Source of the DNA: Antedon bifida
Taxonomy: Eukaryota; Echinodermata; Crinoidea; Comatulida; Antedonidae
Assembly (NCBI GenBank): GCA_963402885.1
Contig: OY727094.1
Coordinates: 15,812,501-15,876,500, forward strand
Direction: 5' to 3'
DNA length: 64,000 bases
Of the stretch, positions 5,919 through 59,524 are shown piece after piece; the first letter of the stretch is position 1; every line of letters begins with the position of its first letter. The notes below the pieces were generated by a model. That model did not search any database. It worked only from the letters and a program-made list of their open reading frames with translations, and was not told where the DNA came from. A program made the position numbers and the translations under genes.

Positions 5919-6504
5919 TACAGTACAGATAATTAATACTGCAACCTTTGGACACGTACACTACGTTTCGTACGCATGGCAACTTCATAGGTTTCGCGTG
6001 GCGTAATCTACGCAAGCTAACATGCTACGCGTAGGCTACGCGTAGACTACGAAGCGATAGCTAGGAGGGGAAATCCCAATGTTCAGATTATTGTGTACTG
6101 TGCTGCATGCACCAAACACGGAATTTGGATACTAGTTTTCATCAAATTTAAAATGCGAGTTAATTACTGTGTGTTGTGTTAAAATGGGACATTTATTTTT
6201 ATGAAAGAAGAACAAGTGTACGTCTACAGTATCGGCCAACGTACGCTAAGGACGGCGGTCGTTGTCTGTTTGTGTGAAATGGCCTCCGACTAGGCCTAGC
6301 TAGCTAGCTAAAAAGGTAGGGTTACCTACCGACAGTTTAATTTTAAAATAAGTGGTACGCCTAGCTAGTACTTATAGGCCTAGTTAGTAGTAGTACTGTA
6401 TGATAATACATACTGTGTACAAGCGTTAAATACGATGTACATGGCGGGAAAATGTGAAATAATGTGGTATAGCCTATAGTAACAGAAGGATATTTCCTCA
6501 ATAA

Positions 6505-6808
6505 TGAGTGAGTGAGTGGCTGAGCGGTTAAGACAGTGGAACCGTAATCACGTAGCCATAACATCGGCAGGGGTTCGAGGCTCACTCACTCCATGGTTCT
6601 GGTGGTAGAACGAGTCTTCTCGGATAAGGACTATAAACCGTAGGTCCAGTGTACACAACTTGCTCGTGTGCACTTTAAAGAACCTAGTACATCTTTCGAG
6701 ACGAGTAGGGGGTTACCCCGGTGTATTAGTACATCACAGCCACTGATCACCAACTGGGCCCTCTGGGAGATCAGTCTTTGACTGAAGAGGTCACCACAAA
6801 CAAACAAA
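6505..6808 (+). mobile_element. tRNA-derived SINE
   Basis: The head carries RNA polymerase III promoter boxes: A box TGGCTGAGCGGTTAAGA near 6517 and B box GGTTCGAGGC near 6572, as in leucine- or serine-type tRNAs. A conserved-looking central part follows (TTCTCGGATAAGGAC, GTGCACTTTAAAGAACC, GGGGGTTACCCCGGTG), resembling the shared central domains of eumetazoan SINE families. The tail is CAAACAAACAAA. The orthologous position in copy 2 (about 13279-13438) lacks it and has unrelated sequence. Confidence 0.8.
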
Positions 6809-6966
6809 ATATGTCAGTTTTCGTCGTGTAGCTGCTGTTACCCACGTGTGTGTATCGCGCAGTACTACACTATGTTTGTTTACTAGGCTATATAATGAAC
6901 GATGTTTCGTTTTAAAATTGCGTTTAAATGAAATATTACGCTTATTTAGTACTATGGGATAATATG

Positions 6967-7796
6967 ATTCAAGATTCAAGATTCAAGAAATTTTATTTGT
7001 CCATAAAAATGGAAATTCACTTTGCTTGGTAGATTAAAACAACAATATTGCAACAATTTAAAACGTGCAGTATTATAACAGATTAAAAATACAAGATAAA
7101 AAGTAAAAAATACTGTTAAAAATGTAAAACTATTTAAAAATTGCATTATCGTCTTACATTAGAATTAAAAATATGAATGCTATTTACAACCAAGGATTTT
7201 CTAGTTCTACAAAGATTTGCTCTTGGAGGTCGTAGCCTAATACCTGATCTATTTAAAGATGTATTGTCCCCCAAAATCATGAAAAATAAAGATTTTTAAA
7301 ATCGGACTTTTAATAGGCCATTTTGCAGTTTTAATGAAGTTGTTCACTTCCATAAGAAAAAAAACGGGGGAAAAATTATTTCACCTATAAAAAGACAAAA
7401 TAAACAGTTAAATTACCCAAAAACTCATTGTCTTCCAGACAATTTGACCATTTTTTGCTTTAAATTACATTTTTTTCAGGTAAATAAATTTTTTTCAGAC
7501 CCAATTTTTTGTGAGAGTGAATAACTATTATGTGATATTAAAATAACATATTCAACAAAAAAATTAAAAAAAATATTTTTTTAGGGGGACAATATATCTT
7601 TAAGTTATAACAGTAATGTAACGGATGAGTGGGGTCTTTCATAATATTGTTTAATTTTTTTTAAATACTCTTTTCATAGATAAATGAACAAGGCGTTAGA
7701 TCAGCTTTAATAATACGTTGTGCAATTTTACGTGGTCTCTCAACATTTTTCTTATCATTTTCAGTAAAGTTACCAACATAGAGGCCAAGTATAATT
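6967..7796 (-). pseudogene. 5'-truncated non-LTR retrotransposon, reverse-transcriptase C-terminus and 3' UTR
   Basis: Minus-strand reading gives the end of a LINE polyprotein: GLYVGNFTENDKKNVERP, then AQRIIKADLTPCSFIYEKS, an in-frame stop, DPTHPLHYCYNL, the inserted MITE, and RSGIRLRPPRANLCRTRKS before a natural stop. A 3' UTR follows, ending in a (CTTGAAT)n tail (about 6967-6989). Copy 2 of the host transposon lacks the insert: its sequence joins GATAATATG directly to CATTGTTTAAATAC near 13608. The stop and the MITE make it inactive. The clade is not settled; the tail and C-terminus resemble CR1/L2-group elements. Confidence 0.7.
7257..7599. mobile_element. TTAA-flanked MITE, copy A
   Basis: A 343-bp element flanked by TTAA on both sides (7253-7256, 7600-7603). 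The termini are AGATGTATTGTCCCCC and its near-perfect inverse GGGGGACAATATATCT. It splits a LINE coding remnant. It is almost identical to copy B at 26470-26814 and homologous, inverted, to copy C at 10813-11142. A TTAA duplication with no coding content fits a piggyBac-type non-autonomous family. Confidence 0.85.
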
Positions 7797-8773
7797 ATTG
7801 TTTAAATACTGTAAATGTCAAAATAATAGAATACAAGTAGGTACGATATTTTTGTTCCAACGGAAATCAAGACGGATCACTCCATTCGTAATTCATTCGC
7901 CCAGTGTGTTTATATCCATGTGTTTATGATCCGCGGATGGATACTCTCTCTGAACTGTACTTGTTATGTTTTGTTTAACCTTCAATTTAGTGAAGTTGAA
8001 CTTTTAAATAAAGTCTTGCATATTTTACAATTTTAATTATAATTTATTTTTATTTATAACTAAAATAACATTTATTTAAATACTATCTAATTTATTATCT
8101 CGCATGACTAAAAATCAAAACAACAAGATCAGGCAAGCACATGTTAATTGTTATGTGTCCTCCGATCCTCCTCCTCTCTGCTGATGACATGTTCTAAACG
8201 ACCTGTAACTTGACCCTCCACCGATCCTCTGTTGCAGGTTGTTGTTACAATAGCTAACAATGGAGTTTGATGTACAGTTACGACAGTTTCAAGCCTGGAT
8301 ATTTTTTGTTTAAATGAAATATACTTCGACGTACTGTATTACTATTAATTACTTATAAAAAATTAACTTGTAATTTGAGGCCTACTACTAATACTATTAC
8401 TAGTAATAATGGAAGGTAGCCGTCATAACGGTCCGTCATCAATGAATTTTGTACAATACTGGCCGGCGATTATTTTATTTAGAAAAATTTGAATTTCAAG
8501 TATGTTTAATCATGATGATATTATTGTATTGGCAAAACAATCGTATCATTTCTATTTATTCGAACTTGTCATAGCCTGCTTAGCCGTCGACGATGTACGT
8601 GTACACAGTTACACGGTGACAGTTGAGTTTGGGGAATTCCCACACACAGTTGATCACAACGTCGTAGCCTACGCACTATGAATGCTACGCCACGCAAACA
8701 CCACGCGACCGCCACGCGTAAACTACGTTACCTACGCGTGGCAAAAGTTGCAGTAGTTTTTATCTGTACTGTA

Positions 8774-11700
8774 CTTTTAAAACAATATAAACAAGAAGTA
8801 ACTATTATTACAAAGAAACTAAAATATTCACAGACTAATAATAAGCTAAACTAATTTCTGTTGTGTATTGGTATAATAAAAACTTAAAATAATAAATTCA
8901 TTACTTTTTGGTATTTTATTTAGTATAAATATGATTATTTATAAAAGCATAATATTATTAAACAATAAACTTGTTTTGATATTAGTCAAATGATTATCCA
9001 ACATGTTTGGTATTAATAGAAAATTAAACTGTTTATATAATTAATACACAGCCATACTAGCCATAATTAAGTCTATAAAATGTAATAAACCATTTATCAT
9101 GAAAATTTAGTTTTACAACTATACTGTTTAAAACATGTATACAGCCTACAGAGGCTCTCATTTTCATTATTTTTTCATTTCTTTCAACCAAATAATCATT
9201 TTTAAATTTCAAGACCTAAAATCAGGCAAGTGATCAAAAAAACAAACGAAAAAAACATTACACTATCTATAGAAGAACCTTGTTAATTCATTTTGAGAAG
9301 AGTTTAACAAGCTAGATAAGATAGATAAGGGTTAAGATACTTCAGTTCAGTAGAATAAATAATACACCTATAAGGTTTTATCAATGATTTATAGTTCCAT
9401 GCCCTGGAAAATAAAATCAAGAACAATTAACTGATACATTCAACTGCAGATGGTGCCAACTTTAACGCAATTCACCTGATATTATGCACCAAAATGGAAA
9501 AATGTATGTAAGCTAAAAAGGCAGAAAAGCACTCAACATGTTTGGTTTATAATTAATCATTCTAGAATGTAATAGTGGCAACAGTAGAACTATATTATTG
9601 AGTAAACTTCCATAGCAATTCTGCTAAACAAACTATTTTACTAGCTATACTTTAATTATTATTTATTTTTTTACTCCATTGCCATCCCCAGATTAAATGA
9701 ACAAAATGCATTATATTTTGATATCAATTTTTAAATAAATTAAAAAAATTGTCATTGTTTGAAATTAATTAAATTTATTTTATTCAAATCACTAAATCAA
9801 ATTCCATGTGTGTTTCAGTATCGACTGTCACTCAAGCTCGACTTCGGTGATATTATAGATTGTGTTCCATATCAAATGCCCAATGAAAGGTGGGGTCTTT
9901 TTACTAGAAAATGTACTGAACCTGGATAGAAGTGGTGCTGATTGGTTTCAGAGATGGGGACCTGGTAGAGTGCATGGATGAAAATTTGAATAAACACCCT
10001 CAAACAATTTGGCTTATTCAGTCCTTTCCTATTCTATGGTGATAAGGGTTGCCAATGATAATCCCTTTGTTTTATTATCAAATCTATCAATAAGTGTTAA
10101 CAGAAAGGCATTCAAACAAAGTTTTATCTATCAGGAAAACTAAGTTGTATTTAGCCCTTAAGAAATTTTGAAATTCATCAGGATATAAATTTGATAGTAT
10201 GCATATGTTTATAGCCTGTGATATTATTACAGTTAGGCCTAATCAGGTATAAAACTAAACAAATTACCAGTATTGGTCAACTCACTTGCACTGCAACCAA
10301 AGTGTTACACCAAGTTTTATTTTTTATTTCTGTTAATTATTTTTCTTTTATAAAAAGCAAAATAATCACCGTCAAGCACTTTGGTTTTTGTTGAACAGTA
10401 CACTTGTACTGAAAGTGCAAACAAAAAATTTAAAAAATAAATAAATGATGAGTGAGGGCACTGTGTAATATAAAATGTATAGGCCCTTGTAATGTATTAT
10501 GGAAAAAATAATTACAAACTAAAAATGGGCCTAATGGGTCTATATTACATCCTTTAATATAATTGCTCTTCACTATTTAATGATGAGGAGTTGGTAGTGT
10601 GTTGACAATAAAAGAGTGTATAAAAAAAAATATAAAAAATGAATAAAACATCATACTAAAATATTCAGTACAACTAGCATCTTTGATTATTATAAAACAT
10701 AGGGATTATAGGGCATAAGCGACTTGTCTAAAAAACAATTTGTGAAAATTGCACTTTTAAAATACAAAATCATATGTAAGAACAATTGAAGGTTGTGAAG
10801 TGTTTTTGTTAAAGATGTGTTGTCCTGAAAAAAAAATTTTGTTGTTGAATGTGCCATTTTAATGTAACATAATACTAATAGTTATCCATTTTGACCAAAA
10901 ATTTGATCCTAAAAAATGTATTTACCAGAAAAAATTTTCAAATTAAATATTTTATTGAAAAAATTGGGCTGCCAGCCAATGGGTTTTTGGTTGAATTTAA
11001 CCATTTATTTTGTCATAAGTGAAAACAATTTTTTCCCCTTTTTTTTTAGGAAGTGATTAACTTTATTCAAACCTACAAAATAACATATTCAAAATCTGAT
11101 TTAATTAATCTTCATTTTTCATGATTTTGGGGACAATACACCTTTTGATTAAATACTGTTTAAAAAAATAATATTAATTTAATAAAATGGTCAAGGCACT
11201 ATTGTAAATGTTTTATAAAGTGTTTCAAATGGAAATTTATGACCATAGCGTGAAAAAACATAATGTATAGCATTATGTATTGATAATAATACACATTAAA
11301 GATTATATTTTAAATTAGAGCATATAACTGTACACTGTTGCTACAAAAAAACTGATATTGTTTGGCACACAGTAACAACTATATTTAAGCCTAATTGTCA
11401 AAGACACCAACAATCTTAAAACATAGCAAACTTCATTTTATTGTGCACAATAGATGAACTTGAATGGCGCCCTCCATAAATTTTACATTTGTGGAATTTA
11501 ATTAACCACAAATATTTTTGATCGATTAATTTGGAGGAACATTGGGTACAATTGGATTGGTACAATTGGAATGGTACACAGAAAGAGTTGGACAATCATT
11601 TTGTGGTTTATATTGTAACCACTAAACACTAATGCAAAAGAAAAGTTGATAACTTGTAAAACAGCTTAAAAGGTGTATCATCATCACTACCAGATTTTAT

Positions 11701-12654
11701 ATTGAGAGTCTAAATCACTGATAATCAGTTGGACTTTTATTAAAATAATCAACTTTAAAATTATATTCTAGAGTATCAGATTAATTATTATTATAATATT
11801 TCTTATTTATAAAAAAAAATAAAGCAGTCTCCATTTTATATTTCTTTAGTATGTTTGTATTTAATACTTTGAAAACTATATAATTAGAATAGAACAATTT
11901 GAATTCTGTGATATTATTACAGTCTGTCCTAATTAGGTATAAAACTAAACAAATTACCGGCCTATTATTCATTTATTCACAGTCAAACACAGTAAAATAT
12001 GTACATTATTTTTGTTTGTTCAAAGTTAAAAATTCACATAAAAATATAAAAATGAGTTAAAAAGGTTAAAATTTGCTAAAATACAGATAAAACACATGAT
12101 TTAAAATACAGATAAAATAAATTATTTAAAATGCAAAATACAAGCAAGATTGGTGTGTGTAAGGGTATAACATAAAATGATCAATGTATCCAAGTTTCAT
12201 TGAATTGACTCATTGCAGTAGTGAGAAACGAGTTTCTCATCCTATTGGTTTTTCATCTTGGGTAAACACTAAACACCCTGACTTACTAAAGACAAGGTAA
12301 TGGTGAGGAAGGGTGATACTCATCAGACATAATTACTTTTTACTTATGGCACTGTTAACAATATCTTTAGCGTTCTCTTTAGTTCCTATTATTCTTTAAG
12401 CTGTTTTACTGATTTCATTAAAATATTTGATTGTATAGTACTAAAAGAGGATGAAAAATCTAGAAATAAAACCCTATCACAATCAAGATGAGCAAGCAAG
12501 TTATGTATTAATGTAGTAATAGATGTTCATAAACACCAAGCTAATTAAATTCAGCTATCAAAACTAATTTTTTATTATGTATTTGAATAATAAGTACTCA
12601 TTTCAATAATAAATATTCAATTCATTTTATCTTAATTTTTTAAAACTTTAAAGC
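8774..12654. other. Intronic stretch with diverged duplications and one MITE
   Basis: No gene is supported. Homologous blocks tie it to other intronic parts of the window: 10030-10180 with 25620-25770, 10215-10275 with 11905-11965 and 5812-5870, and 10495-11260 with 2255-2700. I looked for an ankyrin exon in the place corresponding to 2856-2954 (about 11.4-11.6 kb) and found none. Confidence 0.5.
10813..11142. mobile_element. Diverged TTAA-type MITE, copy C, inverted
   Basis: The left end follows TTAA (10809-10812) as AGATGTGTTGTCC. The right end reads GGGGACAATACACC followed by TTTT, a likely mutated TTAA. The right half (TTCATTTTTCATGATTTTGGGG) is the reverse complement of the left half of copies A and B, so it is inserted in the opposite orientation. 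Many substitutions make it an older insertion than copies A and B. Confidence 0.7.
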
Positions 12655-12656
12655 TA

Positions 12657-14641
12657 CAGTACAAATAATTAATATTGCAACCTTTGGACGCGTACACTAC
12701 GTTTCGTACGCGTGGCAACTTCGTAGGTTTCGTGTGGCGTAGTCTACGCAAGCTAACATGCTACGCGTAGGTTACGCGTAGACTACGAAGCGATAGCTAG
12801 GAGGGGAAATCCCAATGTTCAGATTATTGTGTACTGTGCTGCATGCACCAAACACGGAATTTGAATACTAGTTTTCATCAAATTTAAAATGCGAGTTAAT
12901 TACTGTGAAGTAATAATAAATGTATTAATATTAGTATTAATTACTGTGTGTTGTGTTACAATGGGACATTTATTTTTATGAAAGAAGAACAAGTGTACAT
13001 CTACAGTATCGGCCAACGTACGCTAAGGACGGCGGTCGTTGTCTGTTTGTGTGAAATGGCCTCCGACTAGGCCTAGCTAGCTAGCTAAAAAGGTAGGGTT
13101 ACCTACCGACAGTTTAATTTTAAAATAAGTGGTACGCCTAGCTAGTACTTATAGGCCTAGTTAGTAGTAGTACTGTATGATAATACATTCTGTGTACAAG
13201 CGTTAAATACCATGTACATGGCGTGAAAATGTGAAATAATGTGGTATAGCCTATAGTAACAGAAGGATATTTCCTCAATAACTTATATTTTTTTGTGCAA
13301 TTATGTGTGTGTAGATAATATATTTTATTGTATATCTATTTATTATTTTACTAATAATTGTCAATCTTCAAGAAGAATTTCTGTTGTTATTTTATGATGA
13401 TGATGGACAAATAATACATTTCAGTATTCAGTATTCAATATGTAAGTTTTCGCCGTGTAGCTGCTGTTTACCCACGTGTGTGTATCGTGCAGTACTACTC
13501 TACTGTCTGAACTATGTTTGTTTACTAGGCTATATAATGAACGATGTTTCGTTTTAAAATTGCGTTTAAATGAAATATTACGCTTATTTAGTACTATGGG
13601 ATAATATGCATTGTTTAAATACTGTAAATGTCAAAATAATAGAATACAAGTAGGTACGATATTTTTGTTCCAACGGAAATCGAGACGGATCACTCCATTC
13701 GTAATTCATTCGCCCATTGTGTTTATATCCACGTGTTATGTACTTGTTATGTTTTGTTTAACCTTCAATTTAGTGAAGTTGAACTTTTAAATAAAGTCTT
13801 GCATATTTTACAATTTTAATTATAATTTATTTTTATTTATAACTAAAATAACATTTATTTAAATACTATCTAATTTATTATCTCGCATGACTAAAAAACA
13901 AAACAACAAGATCAGGCAAGCACATGTTAATTGTTATGTGTCCTCCGATCCTCCTCTTCTCTGCTGATGACATGTTCTAAACGACCTGTAACTTGACCCT
14001 CCACCGATCCTCTGCTGCAGGTTGTTGTTACAATAGCTAACAATGGAGTTTGATGTACAGTTACGACAGTTTCAAGCCTGGATATTTTTTGTTTAAATGA
14101 AATATACTTCGACGTACTGTATTACTATTAATTACTTATAAAAAATTAACTTGTAATTTTAGGCCTACTACTAATACTATTACTAGTAATAATGGAAGGT
14201 AGTCATAACGGTCCGTCATCAATGAATTTTGTACAATACTGGCTGGCGATGAATGTACAGTCAGCAGAAGGCCTAGTTAATAGACTTTTCGCGTCTAGCC
14301 TGGCTTTGAGCAGTTTTTAATTGCAATTTTCTTTAGAAAAATTTTTTTTTCAAGTATGTTTAATGATGATGATATTATTGTATTGGCAAAACAATCGTTT
14401 TATTTTTATTTATTCGAACTTGTCATAGCCTGCTTAGCCGTCGACGATGTACGTGTACACAATTACACGGTGACAGTTGAGTTTGGGGAATTCACACACA
14501 CAGTTGATTTCAACGTAGGCTACGAATGCTGCGCTACGCCACGCACTACGAATGCTACGCCACGCAACCACCACGCGACCGCCACGCGTAGACTACGTTA
14601 CCTACGCGTGGCAAAAGTTGCAGTAGTTTTTATCTGTACTG
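12657..14641. mobile_element. Non-autonomous DNA transposon, copy 2 (TA|CAGTAC ends)
   Basis: A 1985-bp copy, same orientation as copy 1, flanked by TA (12655-12656, 14642-14643). It starts CAGTACAAATAATT and ends TTATCTGTACTG. Both ends carry dense ACGCGTAG-type subterminal motifs. Relative to copy 1 it has unique sequence at 13279-13438 and about 14250-14335. A 133-codon frame at 14356-14757 runs through the subterminal repeats and out across the right end into the flank, so I do not treat it as a gene. Confidence 0.85.
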
Positions 14642-14643
14642 TA

Positions 14644-19058: not shown

Positions 19059-22000
19059 AACTAGAATTTAATTCGTCACTTTGACAAATTATAGGTGATC
19101 ATTTTTATCATTTTACTGAAATTAATTTTTTTTAAACATGCACGTACGTTAACATACGATCGGAAAATGTTGATGTATGCCATCCTATTATATGCTTATA
19201 GTGCTGAGTTGTGCCTATACGCCATATACAATATGTACATTATATACTGTATATCTATATACAGTGTAGCATAGGTGAAATTACGGGACACACATGTTCT
19301 AATTTTTTGGCATGATGACGTTATCAAACTAAACTTTAAGATGACAATTTCGAAAGATAATTAATTGAGCAAAAAAAATATAAGATTTGGAAAAAAATTT
19401 GGCACGTAGAAGCGCTGTGTGCGCTCTTTGAATTGTGTGTAACTTTGACGAAAAATATGAAAAAACTACTTTTTCACTTCAACTGGCCATATGTTAACGT
19501 CACAACATCCGATAGGCTTAATTTTTATATGAATTAATATCTACATTTCATCAGCTTTCATAATAAATTATAATCATCAAGGTAACCTTCAATTCTGAAG
19601 AGCTGTAAGATATTCAAATTTACTGCGAAGGTGAAATTACACGGCCTACGTTATTCAAGTTTTTACGCGTGATGACGTCATTAAAATGAAGATAGTGTCA
19701 ACTCATGATAAAGATAATTAATTAAGCAAGCACATACTGAAAGTTGTGCGAAATTCGAGCACACATAACCAAGATGCGCTCTGTTGAATGTGATAATCTA
19801 CACAAAAAGATAACAAATCCTAATTTTTAAATTCAAGTGGCCATTTGATGACGTCAAAACATTTTGTACGTAAAATGTGTACATGAATTCATATCTACAA
19901 CTCAATGGCTTCCAGAATAAGTTAAAAAAATCGGGGGTCATCTTGCATTCTGAAGAATTATTTTCATTTTAAAAAAGACCTATTTTTCACCATTTTCAGA
20001 ACTTTTGTAAAATTAATGTGCGCATTTTGTCATTTTTAACGTGCTCGTATAGCGTTATTTTAAGTCGGAACTGACTCAAATTTGGTGAATGTACTAAGGA
20101 TGGTGAGTAGAATGAGATTTGTAAAAAAAATTCATGTTTTTTACGCTTTTTAAGTATCGCGCGCGCAAAAACGCATTTTTGCGCAGTAATTTTTTGAAAC
20201 ATGCAAATGGCCTAATTCATGCTATAAATTGATCAAAACTTAATTTTGAGCGTTTTAAATTTTTAACGCGTGATATCACGCGCATGAACCTACGTGCGCG
20301 TGCGTTTTTATTTGCTAATATTTTTACCCTTGATCTGAAGTTTACGTGTAGTGAATTTCATTAATATGTGATAATGAATTATGGAGATATGATTGATAAT
20401 GTGATTTCGCAAAATGGCGTATAAATGTCGTCACGGATGAGTGATCACACTGGAAAGCTTATTAGGATTAAGTTATATTATTTGAAAGATATTCTGAAAT
20501 TTTTGTAATCATTGACATTAAACTTTTTGAGATAATTGTTACACAAAATAGTGTACAGAAACAATAAAAAGAAAAACTAGAATTTAATTCGTCACTTTGA
20601 CGAATTATAGGTGATCATTTTTATCATTTTACTGAAATTAATTTTTTTTAAACATGCACGTACGTTAACATACGATCGGAAAATGTTGATGTATGCCATC
20701 CTATTATACGCTTATAGTGCTGAGTTGTGCCTATATGCCATATACAATATGTACAGTATATACTGTATATCTATATACAGTGTACAAGCATAGGTGAAAT
20801 TACGGGACACACATGTTCTAATTTTTTGGCATGATGACGTTATCAAACTAAACTTTAAGATGACAATTTCGAAAGATAATTAATTGAGCAAAAAAATATA
20901 AGATTTGGAAAAAAATTTGGCACGTAGAAGCGCTGTGCGCGCTCTTTGAATTGTGTATAACTTTGACGAAAAATATGAAAAAACTACTTTTTCACTTCAA
21001 CTGGCCATATGTTAACGTCACAACATCCGATAGGCTTAATTTTTATATGAATTAATATCTACATTTCATCAGCTTTCATAATAAATTATAATCATCAAGG
21101 TAACCTTCAATTCTGAAGAGCTGTAAGATATTCAAATTTACTGCGAAGGTGAAATTACACGGCCTACGTTATTCAAGTTTTTACGCGTGATGACGTCATT
21201 AAAATGAAGATAGTGTCAACTCATGATAAAGATAATTAATTAAGCAAGCACATACTGAAAGTTGTGCGAAATTCAAGCACACATAACCAAGATGCGCTCT
21301 GTTGAATGTGATAATCTACACAAAAAGATAACAAATCCTAATTTTTAAATTCAAGTGGCCATTTGATGACGTCAAAACATTTTGTACGTAAAGTGTGTAC
21401 ATGAATTCATATCTACAACTCAATGGCTTCCAGAATAAGTTAAAAAAATCGGGGGTCATCTTGCATTCTGAAGAATTATTTTCATTTTAAAAAAGACCTA
21501 TTTTTCACCATTTTCAGAACTTTTGTAAAATTAATATGCGCATTTTGTCATTTTTAACGTGCTCGTATAGCGTTATTTTAAGTCGGAACTGACTCAAATT
21601 TGGTGAATGTACTAAGGATGGTGAGTAGAATGAGATTTGTAAAAAAAATTCATATTTTTTACGCTTTTTAAGTATCGCGCGCGCAAAAACGCATTTTTGC
21701 GCAGTAATTTTTTGAAACACGCAAATGGCCTAATTCATGCTCTAAATTGATCAAAACTTAATTTTGAGCGTTTTAAATTTTTCATGCGCGATATCACGCG
21801 CATGAACCTACGTGCGCGTGCGTTTTTATTTGCTAATATTTTTACCCTTGATCTGAAGTTTACGTGTAGTGAATTTCATTAATATGTGATAATGAATTAT
21901 GGAGATATGATTGATAATGTGATTTCGCAAAATGGCGTATAAATGTCGTCACGGATGAGTGATCACGCTGGAAAGCTTATTAGGATTAAGTTATATTATT

Positions 22001-23640
22001 TGAAAGATATTCTGAAATTTTTGTAATCATTGACATTAAACTTTTTGAGATAATTGTTACACAAAATAGTGTACAGAAACAATAAAAAGAAAAAACTAGA
22101 ATTTAATTCGTCACTTTGACGAATTATAGGTGATCATTTTTATCATTTTACTGAAATTAATTTTTTTTAAACATGCACGTACGTTAACATACGATCGGAA
22201 AATGTTGATGTATGCCATCCTATTATATGCTTATAGTGCTGAGTTGTGCCTATATGCCATATACAATATGTACAGTATATACTGTATATCTATATACAGT
22301 GTAGCATAGGTGAAATTACGGGACACACATGTTCTAATTTTTTGGCATGATGACGTTATCAAACTAAACTTTAAGATGACAATTTCGAAAGATAATTAAT
22401 TGAGCAAAAAAATATAAGATTTGGAAAAAAATTTGGCACGTAGAAGCGCTGTGCGTGCTCTTTGAATTGTGTATAACTTTGACGAAAAATATTAAAAAAC
22501 TACTTTTTCACTTCAACTGGCCATATGTTAACGTCACAACATCCGATAGGCTTAATTTTTATATGAATTAATATCTACATTTCATCAGCTTTCATAATAA
22601 ATTATAATCATCAAGGTAACCTTCAATTCTGAAGAGCTGTAAGATATTCAAATTTACTGCGAACGTGAAATTACACAGCCTACGTTATTCAAGTTTTTAC
22701 GCGTGATGACGTCATTAAAATGAAGATAGTGTCAACTCATGATAAAGATAATTAATTAAGCAAGCACATACTAAAATTTGTGCGAAAATCAGGTTCAAAT
22801 AACGGAGATGCGCTCTATTGAATGTGATAACCCACACAAAAAGATAAAAATTACTAATTTTTTAATTCAAGTGGCCATTTGATGACGTCATACCATTTTG
22901 TACGTCTAATGTGTATATACATTTATATCTACAACTTATTGGCTTCCATATTCAGTTAAAAAAATTGGGGGTCATCTTCCATTCTGAAGAGTTATATTCA
23001 TTTTAAAAAGGCCCTACTTTTTACCATTTTTAGCACTTTTGTACAATTAATGTGCGCATTTTGTCATTTTTAACGTGCTCGTATAGCGTTATTTTAAGTC
23101 GGAATGGACTCAAATTTGGTGAATGTACTAAGGAAGATGAGTAGAATGCAATTTGTTAAAAAAAATGGTATTTTTTTACGCTTTCTATGTACGCACGCGC
23201 AAAAACGTGTTTTGCGCAGTAATTTTTTAAAACACGCAAATGACCTAATTCATGCTCTAAATTGATCAAAACTTAATTTGGAGCATTTTAATTTTTTAAC
23301 GCGTAATTTCACGCGCATGACCTTGAAACGCGCAAGTTTTTATTTGCTAATATTTTTACCCTTGACCTGAAGTTTACATGTAGTGAATTTTATTGATATG
23401 TAATAAAGAGTTATGGAGATATGATTGATAGAGTGATTTCACAAAATCGCGTATTAATGACGTCACGGTTGAGTGATCACACTGAAAAGCTTATTATGGC
23501 TAAGTTAAAGTATTTAAAAGACATTGTCAAAAATTTGTGATCATTGACATTTAACTTTTTGAGATAATTGTTACACAAATTTGTACAGAGAGAAATAAAT
23601 AATAAGAAAGAGAAGAATAAAGATTTCATACAATAACAAT

Positions 23641-23670
23641 AGGTGATCATTTTATTCTAAATGATCACCT
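23641..23670. repeat. 30-nt terminal hairpin of array unit 3
   Basis: A 12-bp stem (AGGTGATCATTT / AAATGATCACCT) with a six-base loop, preceded by ATACAATAACAAT. It sits at the 3' end of unit 3, just before unit 4 begins. Confidence 0.85.
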
Positions 23671-25197
23671 AAAAAAAGAAAAATAACTAGAATTTAATTC
23701 GTCACTTTGACGAATTATAGGTGATCATTTTTATCATTTTAATGAAATTAACATTTGTTAAACATGCACGTACGTTAACATACGATCGTAAAAAGCTGAT
23801 GTACGCCATCCTATGACATGATGCATATACACTTATAGTGCTGAGTTGTACCTATTATGTACAGTATATACTGTATATCTATATACAGTGTAGCATAGGT
23901 GAAATTACTGGACCCACATCATGTTCAAATTTGTTGGTATGATGGAATTATCAAAATAAACTCGAAGATGACAATTTCGAAAGATAATGAATTGAGCAAA
24001 TAAATATAAGGATTGGAAGAGAATTTGATACGTAGAAGCGCAATGCGCGCTCATTGAAATTTGTATAACTTCGACTAAAGAAATATAAAAACTACGTTTT
24101 AACTTCAACTGGCCATATGATAACATCACAACATCCGATAGGCTTAATTTTTATATGAATTCATATCTACATTTCAACAGCTTTCATAATAAGTTATAAT
24201 CTTCAAGGTCACCTTTAATTCTGAAGAGCTATTAGATATTCAAATGTATGGTGTAGCTAAAATTACACGACCTAGGTTATTCAAATTTTTACGCGTGATG
24301 ACGTCATCGAAATAAAAATGTTGACAACTCATGAGAAAGATAATTATATGAGCAATCATATACAAAAAATTGAGCGAAAATCGGGCGCAAAATAACCGAG
24401 ATGCGCTCAGTTGAATGTGATAATCTATGACAAAAGAGAAAAAAACCTAATTTTTTAATTCAAGTGGCCATGTGATGACGTAATACCATTTTGTACGTCT
24501 AATGTGTATATACATTTATATCTACAACTCAATGGCTTCCCGAATAAGTTAAAAAATTTAGGGGTCATCGTCCATTCTGAAGAGTTATTTTCATTTAAAA
24601 AAAGACATATTTTTCACCATTTTCAGAACTTTTGTGAAATTAATGTGCGCATTTTGTCATTTTTAACATGCTCGTATAGCGTTATTTTAAGTCGGAACGA
24701 ACTCAAATTCGGTGAATGTACTAAGGATGGTGAGTAGAATGCGATTTCTACAAAAAAATCGTATTTTTACGCTTTTTAAGAATCGCGCGCTCAAAAACGC
24801 ATTTTTGCGCAGTAATTTTTTGAAACACGCAAATGGCCTAATTCATGCTCTAAATTGATTAAAACTTAATTTTGAGCTTTTTAAATTTTGAACGCGCGAT
24901 TTTACGCACATGACCCTACGTGCGCGTGCGTTTTTACTTGCTAATATTTTTACCCTTGACCTGAAGTTTACGTGTAATAAATTTCATTAATATGTGATAA
25001 TGAATTATGGAGATATGATTGATAATGTGATTTCACAAAATGGCGTATAAATGACGTCACGGATGAGTGATCACGCTGAAAAGCTTATTAGGACTAAGTT
25101 AAAGTATTTGAAAGACATTGTGAAATTTTGGTAATCATTGACATTAAACTTTTTTAGATATTTGTTACACAAAATAGTGCCCAGAAACAATAATAAC

Positions 25198-25367
25198 AAT
25201 AAAGATTTGATACAATAACAATAGGTGATCATTTTATTCTAAATGATCACCTAAAAATAAAGATTTCATACAATAACAATAGGTGATCATTTAGCATTCT
25301 AAATGATCACCTAATAAAGATTTTATACAATAACAATAGGTGATCATTTTATTCTAAATGATCACCT
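25198..25367. repeat. Three tandem hairpins closing the array
   Basis: A segment of about 57 bp (AATAAAGATTT, ATACAATAACAAT, then the hairpin) is repeated three times, with hairpins at 25223-25252, 25281-25312 and 25338-25367. The middle copy has a slightly longer loop (TAGCATTC-type). The stems are unchanged in all three. Confidence 0.85.
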
Positions 25368-26357
25368 AATTAGTTTCACATTTCCTTTATAATCAAATTT
25401 TGGAGATGGATGACTTTTTAATCTATTAGCTAACATTGTATATTTTAATGGTAATAAAAAAAATAAAAATGAAGCATTTATTACACACTCTAAGGTATGT
25501 AAACACAACTGAACTGTAACACCATCTTTCACATATTTTGTACATTTCTCAAATAAAAAATAAAAAATTCAAATCCTGAAACATAACAAAAACAAATTCT
25601 TCTTTAAAACTGTCTTTAACCATGGTGATATAAACAAGGGTTTGCAATGACATTACCTTTGTTTTACTGTCAAATTCATCAGAAAGGCATCCAAACAACT
25701 CAGACAAGTTTTATTTAGCACTCAAATTTAAAATTGATTAGGACAAATTGTTATAGTAGGACATAGAAAAATTTTAGGAACATTATTTCTTTTAAAAACT
25801 TCATGATAGTAATACACAACAAACAAATCATTATGTCAATCTTGTGTTTAGTTTTAATAAAGTTACTAAGTATGAGACTGATTAGAGGCCTCAAATTTAA
25901 TGATTTTCACATAATAGCTAAAATTAGAATATTATTTACTTATTTAAAAAATATTGGATCATTTATTGACAAAGTTGGGTACATTTTGAAAAACCTGACT
26001 TTAAAATAAATTAAGAGGCCAGCCAGTTATCAATTGCAGCCATTGAAGAAATGCATAATTGTTTTCATTAATTCATTTTAAATACTGTATTAAATATTTC
26101 TTTTTTGAAACCAGTGATCATCGACTGAATTTTCTGAAAAAATTACATATAATTATATTCAATCAACTTTCTTTTTTTTTTTTAAATAGCTATAGCTGTT
26201 GTTGAAAAACACCAAGATCCTAATTTTAAATTGAAGAATATAATAACATTGCATAAAATAAGATAATAAATGTTTTCAAATAATGGCATGCTTAGAATGT
26301 TTCACAATTACATATAAATGAAAGATAATATATAAATGAAGTCAAAGAATAAAACAA
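25368..26357. other. Intronic stretch without a gene
   Basis: AT-rich. The part 25620-25770 (ATGGTGATA, CTTTGTTTTA, CAGAAAGGCAT, GTTTTAT) matches 10030-10180 in order, marking an old intronic duplication. A 68-codon frame at 25803-26009 has no coding character. Confidence 0.4.
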
Positions 26358-26469
26358 ACTAGATTTAATTCGTCACTATCATGAATTATAGGTTATATGC
26401 ATTGATTTAAATAAAGATAATTGATTTTTAAAAGATATTTTGATTGATTGATTTTCTCAGAATCTTTAA
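26358..26469. mobile_element. Left end of a second-type element related to the 1.5-kb array units
   Basis: The sequence ACTAGATTTAATTCGTCAC ... GAATTATAGGTTATATGCAT parallels the left end of the array units, but the AGGTGATCATTT motif is replaced by AGGTTATATGCAT. Its matching right end is at 30138-30836. The element is interrupted by a MITE and a pogo-like transposon. Confidence 0.6.
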
Positions 26470-26814
26470 AGATGTATTGTCCCCCAAAATCATGAAAAAT
26501 AAAGATTTTTAAAATCGGACTTTGAATAGGCCATTTTGCAGTTTTAATGAGGTTGTTCACTTCCATAAGAAAAAAAACGGGAGAAAAAAATTATTTCACC
26601 TATAAAAAGACAAAATAAACAGTTAAATTACCCCAAAACTCATTGTCTTTCAGACAATTTGACCATTTTTTGCTTTAAATTACATTTTTCTCAGGTAAAT
26701 AAATTTTTTTCAGACCCAATTTTTTGTGAGAGTGAATGACTATTATGTGACATTAAAATAACATATTCAACAAAAAAATTAAAAAAAATATTTTTTTAGG
26801 GGGACAATATATCT
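26470..26814. mobile_element. TTAA-flanked MITE, copy B
   Basis: A 345-bp element between TTAA at 26466-26469 and 26815-26818, with the same AGATGTATTGTCCCCC termini and near-identical sequence to copy A (7257-7599). It landed a short way inside the second-type element. Confidence 0.87.
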
Positions 26815-27289
26815 TTAATTATTTATAATATATGATAGGACCTTGCTAACGCGAATACAATAGCCGGTATCACAATCCGATCAAAGATCCCTCTGCGTAT
26901 AATGTCATAAACCACATTTGTTATAATATATTATATTACATAATAATAAAGACATGTGTATATATATGTTGTTTTTTTAATGATAAGTATTTTTTATGTT
27001 CTGTTTTGTTAAATTGTTGATAAAAAATGCTGATAAAATAAAGTCGTAAATAAATGAAATGTACAATAATTTGAAAGTCGAACATTTTATTATATTGGCT
27101 GACAATGTTGCACATTGAAGAATAAAAAAAATCAGTGTGTAGGCCTATAAATCATAATTTAGGTACTGGAGACTCATTAAAAACTGATAATTAATTATAA
27201 TACAAAACCCGCCCGACATACAAAATCTGCCTGACATAATCATAAATACAAAAGATTTAAAAAAAGATGTAAATATAATTATAAATGAT

Positions 27290-28899
27290 AATCCATCAAA
27301 AAACCCTTCAAAGTCCTCGTCATCGTCTGAATCGCCAAATAACGCATACCAGTCCCCTTCAGTTACCCCATCGTCGTACGGATCAACAATATCGTCATTG
27401 TCAGAAATGTCAGCTTCAATTTCATTATCGTCATCGTCCCAAAGTATGTCATCTTCCGTCCCGTCCAATGCATTACTTATACTACATTTTTTTAAAGAGT
27501 TGATTATAATGTCTGGCTTTAAATCATTCCAGGCATCCACTACCCAAGAACACACAGTCGGCAATGATGCTGCACGCATGTTACCGGCGGCTGTGTATGA
27601 CTTTTCCCCATTCACCATCCAGTCGTTCCACATCCTCCTCATGGCATCTTTAAATGGTTTGTTAAGTGAAACGTCTAGTGGCTGTAAAATTGACGCGAGT
27701 CCACCAGGTGTTACGGCAATATCTGTGTCTTCGTCTTCTTTGAGTTTCATTTTAATACTGTCCATCAAGTGGGTCTTAAACATATCCCACACCAATAAAG
27801 ATCGGTCTCATATAGCGCGATTTGGCCTCCGTCCCCACACCAAACGTATCCACTTTTTGCAGCCTTCCTCGTCCATCCATCCCTTTTCCTGAACATGAAC
27901 AATTATTCCTCGGGGAAAAACTAGTTTGGGCATTGTTTTACGCTTGAAAATCACCATTGGCTTTAGTTTTGTGCCATCAGCCATACAGCACAATACCACG
28001 GTAAAATGTTGTTTTTCGTGGCCAGTTGTCTTCACCAACAGTCTTTTCCCCTTTCTCGTTGACTTTGGTATTTCCGACCAAATCAAAAAACATTGGTGTC
28101 TCGTCCATGTTTCCGATCTGGGATAATGCATAATCATGGCGTTTTCGTTTTTTGATTATAAATGACTGGAAGGAGGTTATTTTCTCATCTAGTTCTGCGG
28201 GCAATTTTTGCGCGATTTTCGTTTTTTGTCGGATGACCAAATTTTGTCTTTTCATGAACCGGGTACACCAACTATTTGTTGCCTTAAAGTTTTCACTGAC
28301 GTTCCGATTTCTGCCTGCCCAGCTCAGTGCCTGCAAACGGACCATTGTCCTGGTCACGATGTGCCACTGCCACTCAGAATTGTTGACAGTCAAGAAGGGA
28401 AAGCGAGAACTAAGATCTAGTCATCAGGTGCTACTGGACATTCCGAGGAGCAAACATAGTTGGGGAGATCGGACTTTCAGTGTTGCTGGACCTAGGCTCT
28501 GGAACCACCTACCCTTGAACATTAAACACACATCATCATTGAGTCACTTTAAGTCACTACTCAAAACTCACCTTTTCTGATTTTTCTACAGCGCCATGAG
28601 CAATGAATGTTGGAATGGCGCTATATAAATCGAACGATTGATTGATTGATTGACTCACTCGCTTGTCCGTCACCCATTGATATAATTCATCCTCCAATTG
28701 AGGCCACTTGCAGCTCAATCCCCTCAAAGCACATTTCTTTTTCGGCATCTTTCTTAGCGTGTCTTCTGCTTTTCTCCAGTCTCTCACCAACTTTTCCGAT
28801 ACATCAAACTGACGTGCCGCTGCACAGTTGTTAGAAAGTCTTGGCTGCCTCCACTACTTTCAACTTGAAAGCGGCTTCATATCGGTTCCTCTTAACCAT
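27290..28899 (-). pseudogene. Pogo/Tigger-type (CENP-B-like) transposase, inactivated
   Basis: Reading on the minus strand from an ATG at 28899: a psq-type helix-turn-helix (KRNRYEAAFKLKVVEAA, frameshift near 28834, CAAARQFDVSEKLVRDWRK), then the start of a CENP-B helix-turn-helix (CKWPQLEDELYQWVTDKR). A LINE tail interrupts at 28385-28655. After it come ATNSWCTRFMKRQNL and the DDE nuclease: NMDETPMFFD (first Asp), a frameshift near 28045, CCMADGTKLKPMVIF, an in-frame TGA at 27808, VWDMFKTHLMDS (second Asp) and PLDVSLNKPF (third Asp), then an acidic tail. Domain order and length (about 500 codons) fit the family, whose enzymes cut and paste at TA. Two frameshifts, one stop and an insertion make it dead. 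Confidence 0.88.
28385..28655 (+). mobile_element. LINE 3' tail inserted into the pogo-like transposase
   Basis: Plus-strand frame SSHQVLLDIPRSKHSWGDR, TFSVAGPRLWNHLPLNIK, HFKSLLKTHLF then stop is the C-terminal end of many CR1/L2-group reverse transcriptases. It is followed by GGCGCTATATAAAT and a (TTGA)n tail. It separates the transposase's CENP-B-type domain from the rest. The short repeated ACTC on both sides may be the target duplication. Confidence 0.75.
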
Positions 28900-30023
28900 G
28901 ATGATCAAGTAAATTATTATTATGGTATTTCAAAAGTGTATACAATAATGATAATAGATTTTAACGAAGTAAGAGCACAAATGCAAGTGATGACTAAACC
29001 CCAAACTATTCAGTACAATTGATATATTACACTGAAGATAGGCCTAGGCATAAATCAATTTTATCGTATTATTTTTAGTGCAATTTAATTCGGTGAAAAC
29101 TGCAGAGCGCGCAGCAGTCACGCTATAATGATTACGTACAAACAGACTTGTGTACGTGTATGGTTGCTTTTTTGCATGAAGAGTTGTACGCTTCCATTAT
29201 ATCATGGGGTAATTTATTGTGTATAATGGATAGTTATGACAGTGCAGGATAAAATAAAAATTCAAAACAGATGTACAGAACTACAAAACACTTTTTTTTT
29301 ATTAAATTCAACAAGTTAGGATATCATTAAGTGTTATTACTAATAACTATCCGTAATGTGTGTACTCCCCAGTCAAAAATGGAATACGCCAGCGTATGCG
29401 CGTACAACTGATCACGCTACAAGACCGTGCGGATGTGTGCCTACGCTATTGAATTTTACAATAACACTTGATTGTTTTTGCAATGAAATTCATGTTTTGT
29501 TTAAGTATTTGAAACAAATAAGATAATTAAGAATAAATAGTTTTCGTTTGTGTTTTATATGCTTCTTATTCACTCGCGAAAACATCGTAACACCAGGCAC
29601 AAACGAACTACGATGTCGGAATGTCCATGCAACATGCTTGTTATTGCGTGATATTTTCATCTATACACATGCGCAGTTTGTTTGTTTGTTCGTAATTAAT
29701 TCTCTTTAGTCGGGCGTGTGTACATTTACAGATAACGCGATTTACAACTACTCGCCTGTACAATATTAATAAGCCTCCTAACGGAAAACTCGTTTTAATT
29801 TATTCGAGTGACGCGAAAAACATCGCTGATGGCAAGTACCGCTACATCGCTGTCATTTATTATAGGCTGGAGAAGACGGCGTCGAAGTCGTTGTTGTTTA
29901 CATAAATAATAATAATAATAGATTGTCTAAATATTATTGATTACACTTTAATAATATAAACAAACAACCACATTTCATACATTTCTAGCCCTATTTGAAC
30001 TTTAAAGTAAGTTGTGTTATTAG
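28900..30023. other. Upstream non-coding part of the pogo-like element
   Basis: The region lies between the transposase start and the terminal motif at 30024-30136. It contains a dispersed repeat (29531-29890), which may be a later insertion or part of the element. No gene is visible. Confidence 0.45.
29531..29890. repeat. Dispersed repeat, copy A (uninterrupted)
   Basis: Homologous to 42347-43713, from AATAAATAGTTTTCGTTTGT to ATTATAGGCTGG. At about 29834 it reads GCAAGTACCGCTACATCG, where copy B holds a 982-bp foldback element. It is CpG-containing and has no ORF. Confidence 0.8.
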
Positions 30024-30136
30024 CCGATTTTGGGGGTCGACTTATATTCAGGTCATACCAAAATCAACGATATTCTAGGCCAAAGTTGCGGGTCGACTTA
30101 TACTTGGGGTCGACCTACACTCCGGAAAATATGGTA
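30024..30136. mobile_element. Probable right terminus of the pogo-like element
   Basis: Three spaced copies of GTCGACTTATA / GTCGACCTACA lead into CCGGAAAATATGGTA. This arrangement is like the ends of pogo-related elements that finish in a TTTTCCG-type motif beside TA. The mirrored left end was not found between 26819 and 27290, so the element appears truncated or diverged there. Confidence 0.45.
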
Positions 30137-30137
30137 C

Positions 30138-30836
30138 ACTTCAAGAAAATGAAATAAAAAGTAGGTGTTCCCCAGCATTCTGACGATATATATTAATTTT
30201 AAAATTTAGCATATTTTCACTATTTTGTTAACTTATACGTGCGTAGCCTGTCACTTTTGACGTGCTTGTATAACGCAATTTCAAGTTGAAAAGTGAATCA
30301 ATGATATTATTAAAGAAAGGTTGTAAAACAGAAATCGGGCAAAAAGAGTACGCAACAATGTTTAACGCGCAGTGCGCGTGCAAAATTCTGCGCACTCATG
30401 GCAATTTTTTAAACGCTTAAAATTGCCTAAAACGTACTCTAATTTTATCGAAAATAAATTTTGACAATTTTAAAATTTTTAAGCGCGCGTACGCATGCGT
30501 TATATGCGCTACGCAAGTAATTATATTGCCATATGATGAAATTTATGAGTACCAAATTTTGTTTAAAAGTGATTCATGCTTGTGAAGATATGATTACAAA
30601 CGTGATTTCATTAAATCGCGCATAGACCATGTTATTTATGATTGCGCATCGTGAAAACATAACCACATCGATTCCTGGCCATAAGGAATATACTCTGAAA
30701 AATTGACTTAGCTAGATGAAACTGATAAAGATAATTGACGGACAAAATAGTGCTAAGGAAAGAATAAATAAATAAATAAATAAATAAAGATTGTGACAGA
30801 ATCAAGAGGTTATATGCATGATAATGCATATAACCT
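30138..30836. mobile_element. Right part of the second-type element related to the array units
   Basis: Diverged but colinear with the 3' third of the 1.5-kb units (CTTTTGACGTGCTTGTATAACGC, ACGCGCAGTGCGCG, GATATGATTACAAACGTGATTTC). It ends with (AATA)n, AATAAAGATT and a 30-nt hairpin at 30807-30836: 13-bp stem AGGTTATATGCAT / ATGCATATAACCT, loop GATA. The stem equals the motif at the element's left end (26358-26469). Confidence 0.65.
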
Positions 30837-36668: not shown

Positions 36669-37220
36669 GCATGTATGAAATTTTTTTTTTTATCTTTTGT
36701 GGTTAACTACCACCTTTATTCATTCAATGTTACATAAACAACAATTACAGAATCTCATTATATTTACATTATTTTCTGCATATTTTTTGTTGTTATCTAT
36801 TACAAAATATATTGCATATTTAATAAAAAGTTGTTTACTTTATGAAACGTTTGTTAAATTATTTATCATAATTTGTGTGTCTTTTCAGTTTAAATATATA
36901 TTTGTATATATCTATAATATCAATACATTCACATGTATATATAGAAATACATACTATATATCAAATATATATACATACACACGTATATACCCATACAATA
37001 CATACACATATGCATAAAATTAACATTAAAACCAAGAACGATAAAAAAAATATACACAAATATAATACATTAGACCTATATACACTGGCATAAAAAAACC
37101 TATAAAAACTGTCAAGTAATAAAATGGAAATGTATATACACAAATTAAAAGTATAATATACGTATACATACAGACAATATACTTTATTTCCAATTAGTCG
37201 GGTCAAAATATGAAAATATA

Positions 37221-37832
37221 ACCCGAAAAAAATTGCAAGAAAATGTTTTTTGATGTATTACAATAAAATATGGTCTCAAAAAACATATATCAAAAGTTTA
37301 CTCAAATCGGACTACCGCAAAGGTTCAAAATTTGACGTTAAAAAAGATGGCCGCCAATTTTTAAAAATCTGTAACCGCTTGTAGTAGATTATTCAAAATA
37401 TATATGTTTATATTTACACTTCCAGTTTGTGACCTTTGACATATATGGCATGACGTTTATATATCTACGTAACTGCAAATCACAGAGTCTTGATATTGGT
37501 GTCAAAATGTTCAGAACATACATATTTATATTTACCCTTTTTAAACATTTTGTTGAAACATGACCGGAAATTCCATTTTGTGACCTTTGACCCATATATG
37601 GCATAAAAAAATGTTCATATCTATGTAACTAAAAATCATAGAGCCTAAATAATCGAAAACACAAGGTTTTCCCTTTGACACGATGTGTGTCCAAGTGCGT
37701 AAAAGCTGATTACAGGCTCTTTTGAACCTTTGCGGTAGTCCGATTTGAGTAAACTTTTGATATAATTATATTTTTTGAGACCATATTTTATTGTAATTCA
37801 TCAAAAAACATTTTCTTGCAATTTTTTTGGGG
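37221..37832. mobile_element. TA-flanked MITE with arms of about 110 bp, inside the LINE
   Basis: Arms 37221-37332 and 37718-37832 are near-perfect inverse copies (AAAAAAATTGCAAGAAAATG outermost; CGGACTACCGCAAAGGTTCAAAA innermost). TA flanks both sides (37219-37220, 37833-37834). The loop holds two direct subrepeats (TTTGTGACCTTTGAC ... ATATCTA.GTAACT). Confidence 0.8.
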
Positions 37833-37859
37833 TAATGAAACAGTTTGACTCGACTAAAT

Positions 37860-55460: not shown

Positions 55461-56359
55461 TTATTCCAAACATTTTACTAGTACTGTTTTTATTCAGCTC
55501 TAGACCACCAGCCAATATCATGTAACAAGTACAGCTGAACTCTGGGATTCCCTTTAAACTGCTTACTTACTTTATAAGTCAAGAAATTGCATTACAAAAT
55601 GAATTAAATCTCGGCATTTTTTAAATAGAATCGGTTGCCGTTCAAAAAAATGTTTAACATGACAATTTTACATTTGACTCATACATTTTCGTTCAATTAT
55701 TTAGAATTTCCTTTCAAAATATAATTTCTTCGTAAATCTGTATGCATGGTGACTAGATAAAAAACAATAAAGCCTAGAGATTGCACAGATTTTAGGCTCT
55801 GACATTCCTAATTAGGGGTGAAAGCAATTGCCCCTCCTATACTCTTAAGGCCCATTTACACTAGGGCGATAACAATAAATAGATACAACAGTTTTCGTTC
55901 TAGAACTATAGGATAATCATTTATGCTGTATCTGATAAAAAAAAAGTATTTTTAAAAATCAAATGACATCATGATCAATAAAAACAATAAAATCATTGTA
56001 TTGTCCCGATATTATTGCTCTTACTATTAAATCATGACGTCATTTGATTGGACGTGTGGAAATATTATTTTCATTAGAGGCAGCATAGATGATAATCCAG
56101 TTCTAGGATGAAAACTTTTTTAAATTCTTTTCTTTTTGAAAATGAAAAATGCATATTTATCTTTTTATTGTCAATCGTTATTGCCCTTGTGTAAATGGGC
56201 CTTTAACCCCCTTCCCACAATTGTGTCATTTTTACATTTACAAAAATTGTTTGCTGCACTCAGATCCAAACAGTATTTCGGTGTTTATTTTCATTCATTT
56301 TATTTATCAGATTTGTAAATAAATTGATCTGAAAATAGTTAGGGTAGTATTTGTTGCTT
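55461..56359. other. Unassigned stretch
   Basis: No gene. It includes CATTTACACTAGGGCGATAACAA (55854) and its loose inverse TTATTGCCCTTGTGTAAATG (56180), which could be the ends of a MITE of about 350 bp. I could not fix its borders. Confidence 0.35.
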
Positions 56360-59093: not shown

Positions 59094-59524
59094 CAATTCA
59101 TTTACAAAACTCCTACACATGATTTCCTTTGGAATTGTAATACAAAACACAAGAAGTTGTTAAGTGTAGTATATAGACATAATATGATTCATACAAGTAG
59201 GTATCCCAATGAAAAAATGGTGTTTTTTGCAGTTAAAATTGGAAGCATTTTTAGGCAAAAAATCGAGTATTTTTTTACCACTTTAAATAACCATAACTTC
59301 AGAACGGGTAATCGGATTTCAATCATTTAAATTGCAAAATGCTAATTACATTAAGTTCTTTGTGGTTAACTGAAAGAAAAAGTAAAAAAATTAATCTAAA
59401 TTTTTTCATTGGGATACCTACTTGTATGAATCATATTATGTCTATATACTACACTTAACAACTTCTTGTGTTTTGTATTACAATTCCAAAGGAAATCATG
59501 TGTAGGAGTTTTGTAAATGAATTG
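59094..59524. repeat. Perfect inverted repeat, 125-bp arms
   Basis: Arms 59094-59218 and 59400-59524 are identical inverse copies over all 125 bases by eye. The left arm spans the flank plus the first 21 bases of the element at 59198-61213. The right arm is an inverted copy of that junction lying inside the element. The loop is 181 bp. Confidence 0.92.

Follow-up and report, generated by a model that had tools for sequence, protein, structure and literature searches.

The window analysed here is a stretch of 64 kb from the feather star Antedon bifida (C7:15812501-15876500; positions below count from its first letter), in which an array of four related repeat units at 19-25 kb is followed by a further copy, element 2 (26359..30836). 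Five left ends of the form CTAGA(A)TTTAATTCGTCAC occur in the window, at 19061, 20577, 22096, 23687 and 26359, the first four with the motif AGGTGATCATTT and the fifth with AGGTTATATGCAT, and hairpins of the same two types lie at 23640-23671, 25222-25253, 25280-25313 and 25337-25368 (AGGTGATCATTT type) and at 30807-30836 (AGGTTATATGCAT type). When the window was scanned for this signature (a hairpin stem of at least 11 bp with an inverted copy of the stem arm and CTAGT within 60 nt), the matches were confined to the places of the array and of element 2, and 20 first-order Markov sequences with the window's composition gave none. A preliminary description of the locus had recognised the two motifs and their hairpins, which we confirm, but had overlooked a second hairpin at the left ends, AATTCGTCA-CTT-TGACGAATT on the plus strand. 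It had also read the elements in reverse: they lie on the minus strand, and what it called the 3' hairpin is therefore the 5' hairpin and its 5' motif a subterminal 3' tag.

Anatomy of the minus-strand elements

The four array units, u1 to u4, belong to one family, M1. Units u1 (19061..20574) and u2 (20577..22092; 97-100% identical to u1 per 130-column window) both lack a directly attached 5' hairpin, u1 ending at the junction GAAACAATAAAAAGAAAA/ACTAG (here and below a slash marks a boundary). Unit u3 (22096..23671) has its own 5' hairpin with the 5' asymmetric terminal inverted repeat (ATIR; 23640..23671) and is 98-99% identical to u1 in its left half and 87% in its right half, and u4 (23687..25253), 99.5% identical to the singleton L023 among the loci fetched from the genome, ends in a hairpin of the TTTGATAC type (25222..25253) that L023, L026 and L027 have as well. 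Beyond u4 stand two orphan 5' hairpins. The one at 25280..25313, which we assign to u2, has a 15-bp stem of the TTTCATAC type and the same form as in the singleton L011, whose body is 98.7% identical to u1 and 98.9% to u2; the one at 25337..25368, assigned to u1, forms the 5' end of the array and is of the TTTTATAC type, common among u1-like singletons. The array had been described as having one such hairpin per unit, whereas u1 and u2 have none, u3 has one and u4 is followed by three in succession with a 57-nt period. The 3' ATIRs, reading AGGTGATCATTT on the plus strand, lie at 19093..19104 (u1), 20609-20620 (u2), 22128-22139 (u3) and 23719-23730 (u4), and the 3' hairpins at 19070..19090, 20586-20606, 22105-22125 and 23696-23716, respectively. 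Element 2 is a copy of a second family, M2, with its 3' ATIR (AGGTTATATGCAT on the plus strand) at 26390..26402, its 5' hairpin and 5' ATIR at 30807..30836 (13-bp stem) and a decayed 3' hairpin at 26367..26387 (-1.8 kcal/mol, z-score -0.25), which reads CTATCATGAATT where most M2 copies among the matches listed read CTATGACGAATT.

Read on the minus strand, the 5' end of M1 is T/TAGGTGATCATTT-loop-AAATGATCACCTA, followed by a body of ~1.5 kb, and the 3' end consists of AAATGATCACCT, the 3' hairpin AATTCGTCA-AAG-TGACGAATT and AAATTCTAG/TT. Each family has three copies of its tag: one at the 5' end, one in the second arm of the 5' hairpin and one, inverted, ~32 nt before the 3' end. In the window elements this 3' tag lies upstream of the 3' hairpin, 31-32 nt from the end, and the 5' ATIR begins 0-2 nt from the 5' end (T/TAGGTG or TT/AGGTT), the exact terminus depending on the T-rich flanks. 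The three 5' hairpins that were folded have 13-bp stems and z-scores of -5.4, -7.4 and -7.2, and the 3' hairpin energy is -8.5 kcal/mol in u2, u3 and u4 and -5.2 in u1. All five 3' ends read CTAG followed by TT, as seen from the flanks of the occupied sites. The window elements are thus of Helitron2/Helentron anatomy (HINE/DINE-1-like) on the minus strand, and the likeness to Helentrons noticed earlier was correct, as the ATIRs and the 5' and 3' hairpins fit that layout. They are also non-autonomous copies without coding capacity, as HINE elements are: the longest open frame of the array measures 92 amino acids, and none of the ten frames scanned gave a Pfam match over the cut-off, the best sub-threshold one being DoxD (E 0.004). 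Two central repeats in u4 share 226 of 323 aligned bases.

Matching of the end tags across the genome

In the 315.6-Mb assembly (27 contigs), the M1-type 3' end was found at 1981 places (at most 2 mismatches, the tag excluded from the pattern; 4 places for the backwards control), 3' ends with a tag beginning AGGTH at 271, most of those listed being M2, and a sister group with the stem CTCGTCAC-TNT-GACGAG at 2429, while exact 5' hairpins number 1390 for M1 and 218 for M2. The 3'-end tags are AGGTGATCATTT in M1, AGGTTATATGCAT in M2, AGTTATCCGC in F3, GGTTATCCGC in F4 and F6, which were counted as one class for pair matching, and GGTTTTCCGC in F5, so that at least five tag classes reside in one genome. 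We discarded a candidate third motif, AGGTTATGCAT: none of its copies (L050, L067 and L068) has a matching hairpin within reach, and L067 and L068, from their common flank, look like decayed duplicates.

To each classifiable 3' end we assigned the nearest 5' hairpin that could be classed and that preceded the next 3' end. The loci came from the head of the M1-type 3'-end list (L009-L028, mostly unclustered), from the first places of the AGGTH-tag list (L029-L058) and from a choice by 3' tag (L059-L073, five of them taken because the tag looked variant), with L074 added for a RepHel remnant. Together with the window, leaving aside L001-L008 (sub-stretches of L009-L016), merging 3' ends identical over their first 300 nt and missing those outside the search pattern, they gave 68 distinct 3' ends, of which 61 have a classifiable tag and 7 do not. 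For 36 of the 61 a hairpin qualified, and it was of the same class as the 3' tag in 35 (M1 14, M2 12, F3 5, F4/F6 3, F5 1), whereas 20,000 permutations gave 10.6 matches on average and never more than 23. The covariation of motif and hairpin stem suspected from the window alone therefore holds, by class, on the sampled copies.

The same agreement was seen place by place among about the first 100 places listed, covering parts of C1 and C7 (C1:13419622, which carries an M2 tag, was removed from the M1 list for the proximity, hairpin and cluster comparisons). An M2 3' end lay within 6 kb in the right orientation for 13 of 17 M2 hairpins on C1 and 17 of 27 on C7, as opposed to 0 and 2 when the orientation was flipped, the triple hairpin C7:4077677 being counted once and several variant tags being left out by eye. 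Within 3 kb of the nine M2 hairpins on C1 below 20.46 Mb, an M1 3' end was never found (0/9) and an M2 one in 7/9. A further comparison is that of F5 and F6, whose tags are one A/T position apart: C1 below 16.81 Mb carries 18 F5/F6 hairpins, 6 of them stacked or orphan; the remaining 12 are paired directly with an F5/F6 3' end no more than 2 kb away, and in all 12 pairs the A/T position agrees (10 T, 2 A). The two arms of the F5/F6 hairpin are also complementary at this position in 61 of the 61 printed with letters, of 273 found.

Body and hairpin order in the arrays

Between body and 5' hairpin, the M1 singletons L009, L010, L012, L017 and L024 carry a tract that is A-rich on the plus strand (e.g. 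GAAACAATAAAAAGAAAAAAAAAAATAATAATAAAG; 73% A in L010 versus 34% in the body), and in L023, which is u4-like, this tract is shorter. Hairpin-less units end inside this tract (GAAACAATAAAAAGAAAA/ACTAG in the window, GAAACAATAAAAAG/ACTAG in L022), and its far side remains with the orphan hairpins, as expected if a new copy had inserted there. Under such nested insertion, an array should have as many hairpins as bodies, with the one order mirroring the other. The window array indeed has four bodies and four hairpins, a balance that uses the assignment of hairpins by subtype: the inner one is that of L023 (u4-like), the middle one that of L011 (u1/u2-like) and the outer one the common u1-like singleton type. 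For the L022 array, ~4 stacked hairpins including M1 and F5 were predicted beforehand, and the stack observed has three (F3, F5 and M1, in that order).

On C1 below ~15 Mb, each of the four multi-unit clusters with at least one M1 3' end has as many M1 hairpins as M1 bodies, and the 37 singletons have one hairpin in 25 cases, none in 10 and two in 2. In a cluster of 12 units, the six M1 and F5 elements follow a last-in-first-out order, as 1 in 20 label orders would, a comparison that covers the M1 and F5 hairpins, with the F3 and F4 units outside it. Stacked 5' hairpins were also observed in M2 copies, three at C7:4077677-4077817 and two at L074:1485-1567 with a spacing of 53-58 nt, and stacking is thus not limited to M1. 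Since identity per alignment window is 97-100% among u1, u2 and the left half of u3, and u3 as a whole is a mosaic, exchange between units probably happened as well. The literature searched on tandem, nested or self-inserted Helitron arrays yielded no report of a mirrored hairpin order, and units without hairpins, occurring together with stacked 5' hairpins and a mirrored order of families, are apparently new as evidence on such arrays.

Candidate coding partners and neighbouring repeats

The Helitron_like_N profile has 39 matches in the genome, 11 of them in open frames of at least 3000 amino acids, and none in 14 control genomes; PIF1 has 48 matches here and is found in 3 of the 14 controls, in 2 over the cut-off. 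No autonomous Rep/helicase relative with the ends described above, as envisaged in the preliminary description, could be tied to them among these profile matches, two RepHel loci having been inspected. The RepHel remnant in L074, close to an M2 3' end, was rejected as a partner because the 1.5-kb element ends ~75 bp short of it. The RepHel locus C8:19816895 is followed downstream by a canonical Helitron-like end, AAGCCCGGAGGGCTTTAAGGCTAGT (L075:200-240, ~C8:19821500), and by two copies of these families in antisense orientation; the RepHel match there lies in an open frame of 3152 amino acids, which exceeds the usual lengths of animal RepHel proteins. Rfam and tRNA scans found nothing, scans of sequence collections that consist of viral and prokaryote contigs and may exclude this genome likewise found nothing, and the Replitron literature gave no relevant lead.

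Element 2 had been described as a related element of 4.5 kb. Its M2 family ends stand, whereas the family sequence is confined to about 26359-26477, 26811-26928 and 30135-30836 and the remainder includes foreign repeats; against the 1.5-kb relative in L074 it aligns in three main pieces of 744, 137 and 120 bp at 91-94% identity. Homology of its left flank to the array was considered and dismissed, being no better than that of shuffled sequences (19 of 100 as good). Among the inserts is a repeat resembling a miniature inverted-repeat transposable element (MITE), at 26461..26823 (limits approximate), with imperfect inverted-repeat ends. It is one of three related MITE-like repeats in the window: 26465-26822 is 97% identical to 7252-7608, and 10809-11145 is ~72-73% identical in inverted orientation. 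Broken minus-strand transposase frames at 27145..28853 match DDE_1, HTH_Tnp_Tc5 and BrkDBD over the Pfam cut-offs and presumably belong to a Tigger/pogo-like element. Inside it, a plus-strand frame (28134-28580) without a Pfam match has a terminal stretch, followed by TTGATTGATTGA, that we take to resemble the 3' end of a non-LTR (long terminal repeat) retrotransposon. Elsewhere, the window holds 60-bp satellite arrays of one common unit at 56891-58282 (23 copies) and 59515-59832 (5 copies) with 94-96% matches, a dispersed repeat in two copies (5870-8773 and 12602-14643, 86-91% identical in pieces), a long imperfect palindrome at 37194-37857 (~660 bp, 66% self-complementary) and a second palindrome at 55884-56122.

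Several features of these elements have precedents. Helitron2 carries its 5' ATIR within 2 nt of the end in a hairpin and its 3' ATIR upstream of the 3' hairpin, with compensatory changes between Helitron-1N1_CQu and Helitron-1N2_CQu, and pairing of the two ATIRs has been suggested to set the endpoint of replication (Bao & Jurka 2013, PMC3627910). Our elements share the placement of both ATIRs and the compensatory end changes, but the comparison here is of five tag classes in a single genome, on sampled copies. Like HINE/Helentron elements (Thomas et al. 2014, PMC4067079), they are non-autonomous, have subterminal inverted repeats (subTIRs) of 12-15 bp that define the families, an apparently T-rich target and, in some copies, tandem repeats; they differ in that the 3' tag lies 31-32 nt from the end in the window, as opposed to 38-60 bp, and in that arrays are read here as nesting and there as missed termination. 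DINE-1 has subTIRs at both ends, a 3' hairpin and central repeats, as here, and a TT target, which the flanks here also suggest, its subTIRs being listed for each fly species, its inverted-repeat structure being kept despite ongoing sequence change and compensatory changes being inferred in its 3' stem (Yang & Barbash 2008, PMC2374699), although that comparison is between fly species and ours between families of one genome. The matched family-specific end motif, of which the preliminary description knew no earlier account, is thus already on record in the DINE-1 and Helitron2 reports. FoHeli of Fusarium oxysporum (2016, PMC5148889) likewise has ATIRs and several 5' termini with one 3' end, for which self-insertion was proposed as the cause, but here hairpin-less bodies balance orphan hairpins in most arrays tested, and do so in mirrored order. 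For dimers of fly transposable elements, insertion preference has been given as the source in a review.

Origin of the matched ends and of the arrays

We consider it highly probable that the window holds HINE elements on the minus strand, each family with its tag in triplicate, mobilised in trans by RepHel and assembled into arrays by nested insertion. RepHel supplied in trans would act on both ends and copy the elements by rolling circle, while pairing of the 5' and 3' tags, or their shared recognition, would mark the end of replication, and as a consequence only copies with matched tags would stay mobile. A new copy would land in an older one, in the tract (T-rich on the element strand) that separates the older body from its 5' hairpin; the older body would then be left hairpin-less, and the older hairpin would stand as an orphan beyond that of the newcomer.

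Several observations weigh against this reading. The sole class mismatch among the 36 pairs, L072, is a composite with stacked hairpins in which a decayed hairpin of the element's own class lies inside one of a different class, and L062 also has an outer hairpin of another class. The classes rest on cores of 8-9 nt, so that smaller mismatches are hidden within the 35 matches (L034 and L073 each differ by one base and yet count), and hairpins were classed against five known tags, so that an unlisted class would go uncounted. The 3' tags of L070 and L071 are too changed to be classed and do not match their own hairpins, which, in these single copies, looks like decay. No hairpin is in reach for 25 of the 61 classifiable 3' ends, 13 of these 25 being M2 loci that end ~1.55 kb away. 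The L022 array lacks one F5 hairpin (5 bodies, 4 hairpins) and hence contains one violation of the order, and among 50 M1 hairpins listed the nearest 3' end is M1 for 37, of another family for 5, which we read as nesting, and absent within 2.6 kb for 8. The lack of an autonomous partner among the inspected loci belongs here as well.

Matched tags might instead result from end-to-end gene conversion or template switching, without selection on matching. Intrastrand template switching allows one arm of a hairpin to be corrected from the other, a single past conversion could account for each tag class, and the hairpin form with the longer perfect stem is common to the window and L011. Yet each of the five classes is matched, and some single copies have lost the match, so conversion does not hold old copies in step; we regard this explanation as unlikely, even though the sequence by itself is compatible with selection for matching ends as well as with conversion. 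Less likely still is an origin of the arrays by unequal crossing-over or by rolling-circle read-through: published work attributes Helitron arrays to a termination signal that was bypassed (PMC4067079), and the near-identity of u1, u2 and the left part of u3, together with the chimeric look of u3, makes some exchange between units likely, but read-through of a single element gives neither mixed-family arrays, nor hairpins equal to bodies in most arrays tested, nor a reversed order of orphans. From these patterns the array appears better explained by nested insertion than by other origins. That the elements are canonical Helitron1 is very improbable; CTRR precedes T at the 3' end (CTAG then T, 5/5) and the genome has RepHel genes, one with a canonical-looking end downstream, but the 5' TC start of Helitron1 is absent, and T/T flanks, a 5' hairpin and tags at both ends point to Helitron2/Helentron.

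Several tag classes reside together in this genome, one of them with 1390 exact 5' hairpins, which makes it a good system for testing end matching in Helitron2/Helentron elements. Nesting would explain tandem Helitron arrays without rolling-circle read-through, and nested arrays would give a relative clock of family activity. The chances seem to us evenly divided that the T-rich tract inside the 5' hairpin serves as a self-carried landing pad preferred by related families, with the orphan hairpins as a last-in-first-out record of arrivals; if it does, the stacked ends of other families would supply material from which chimeric elements and new end tags could form.

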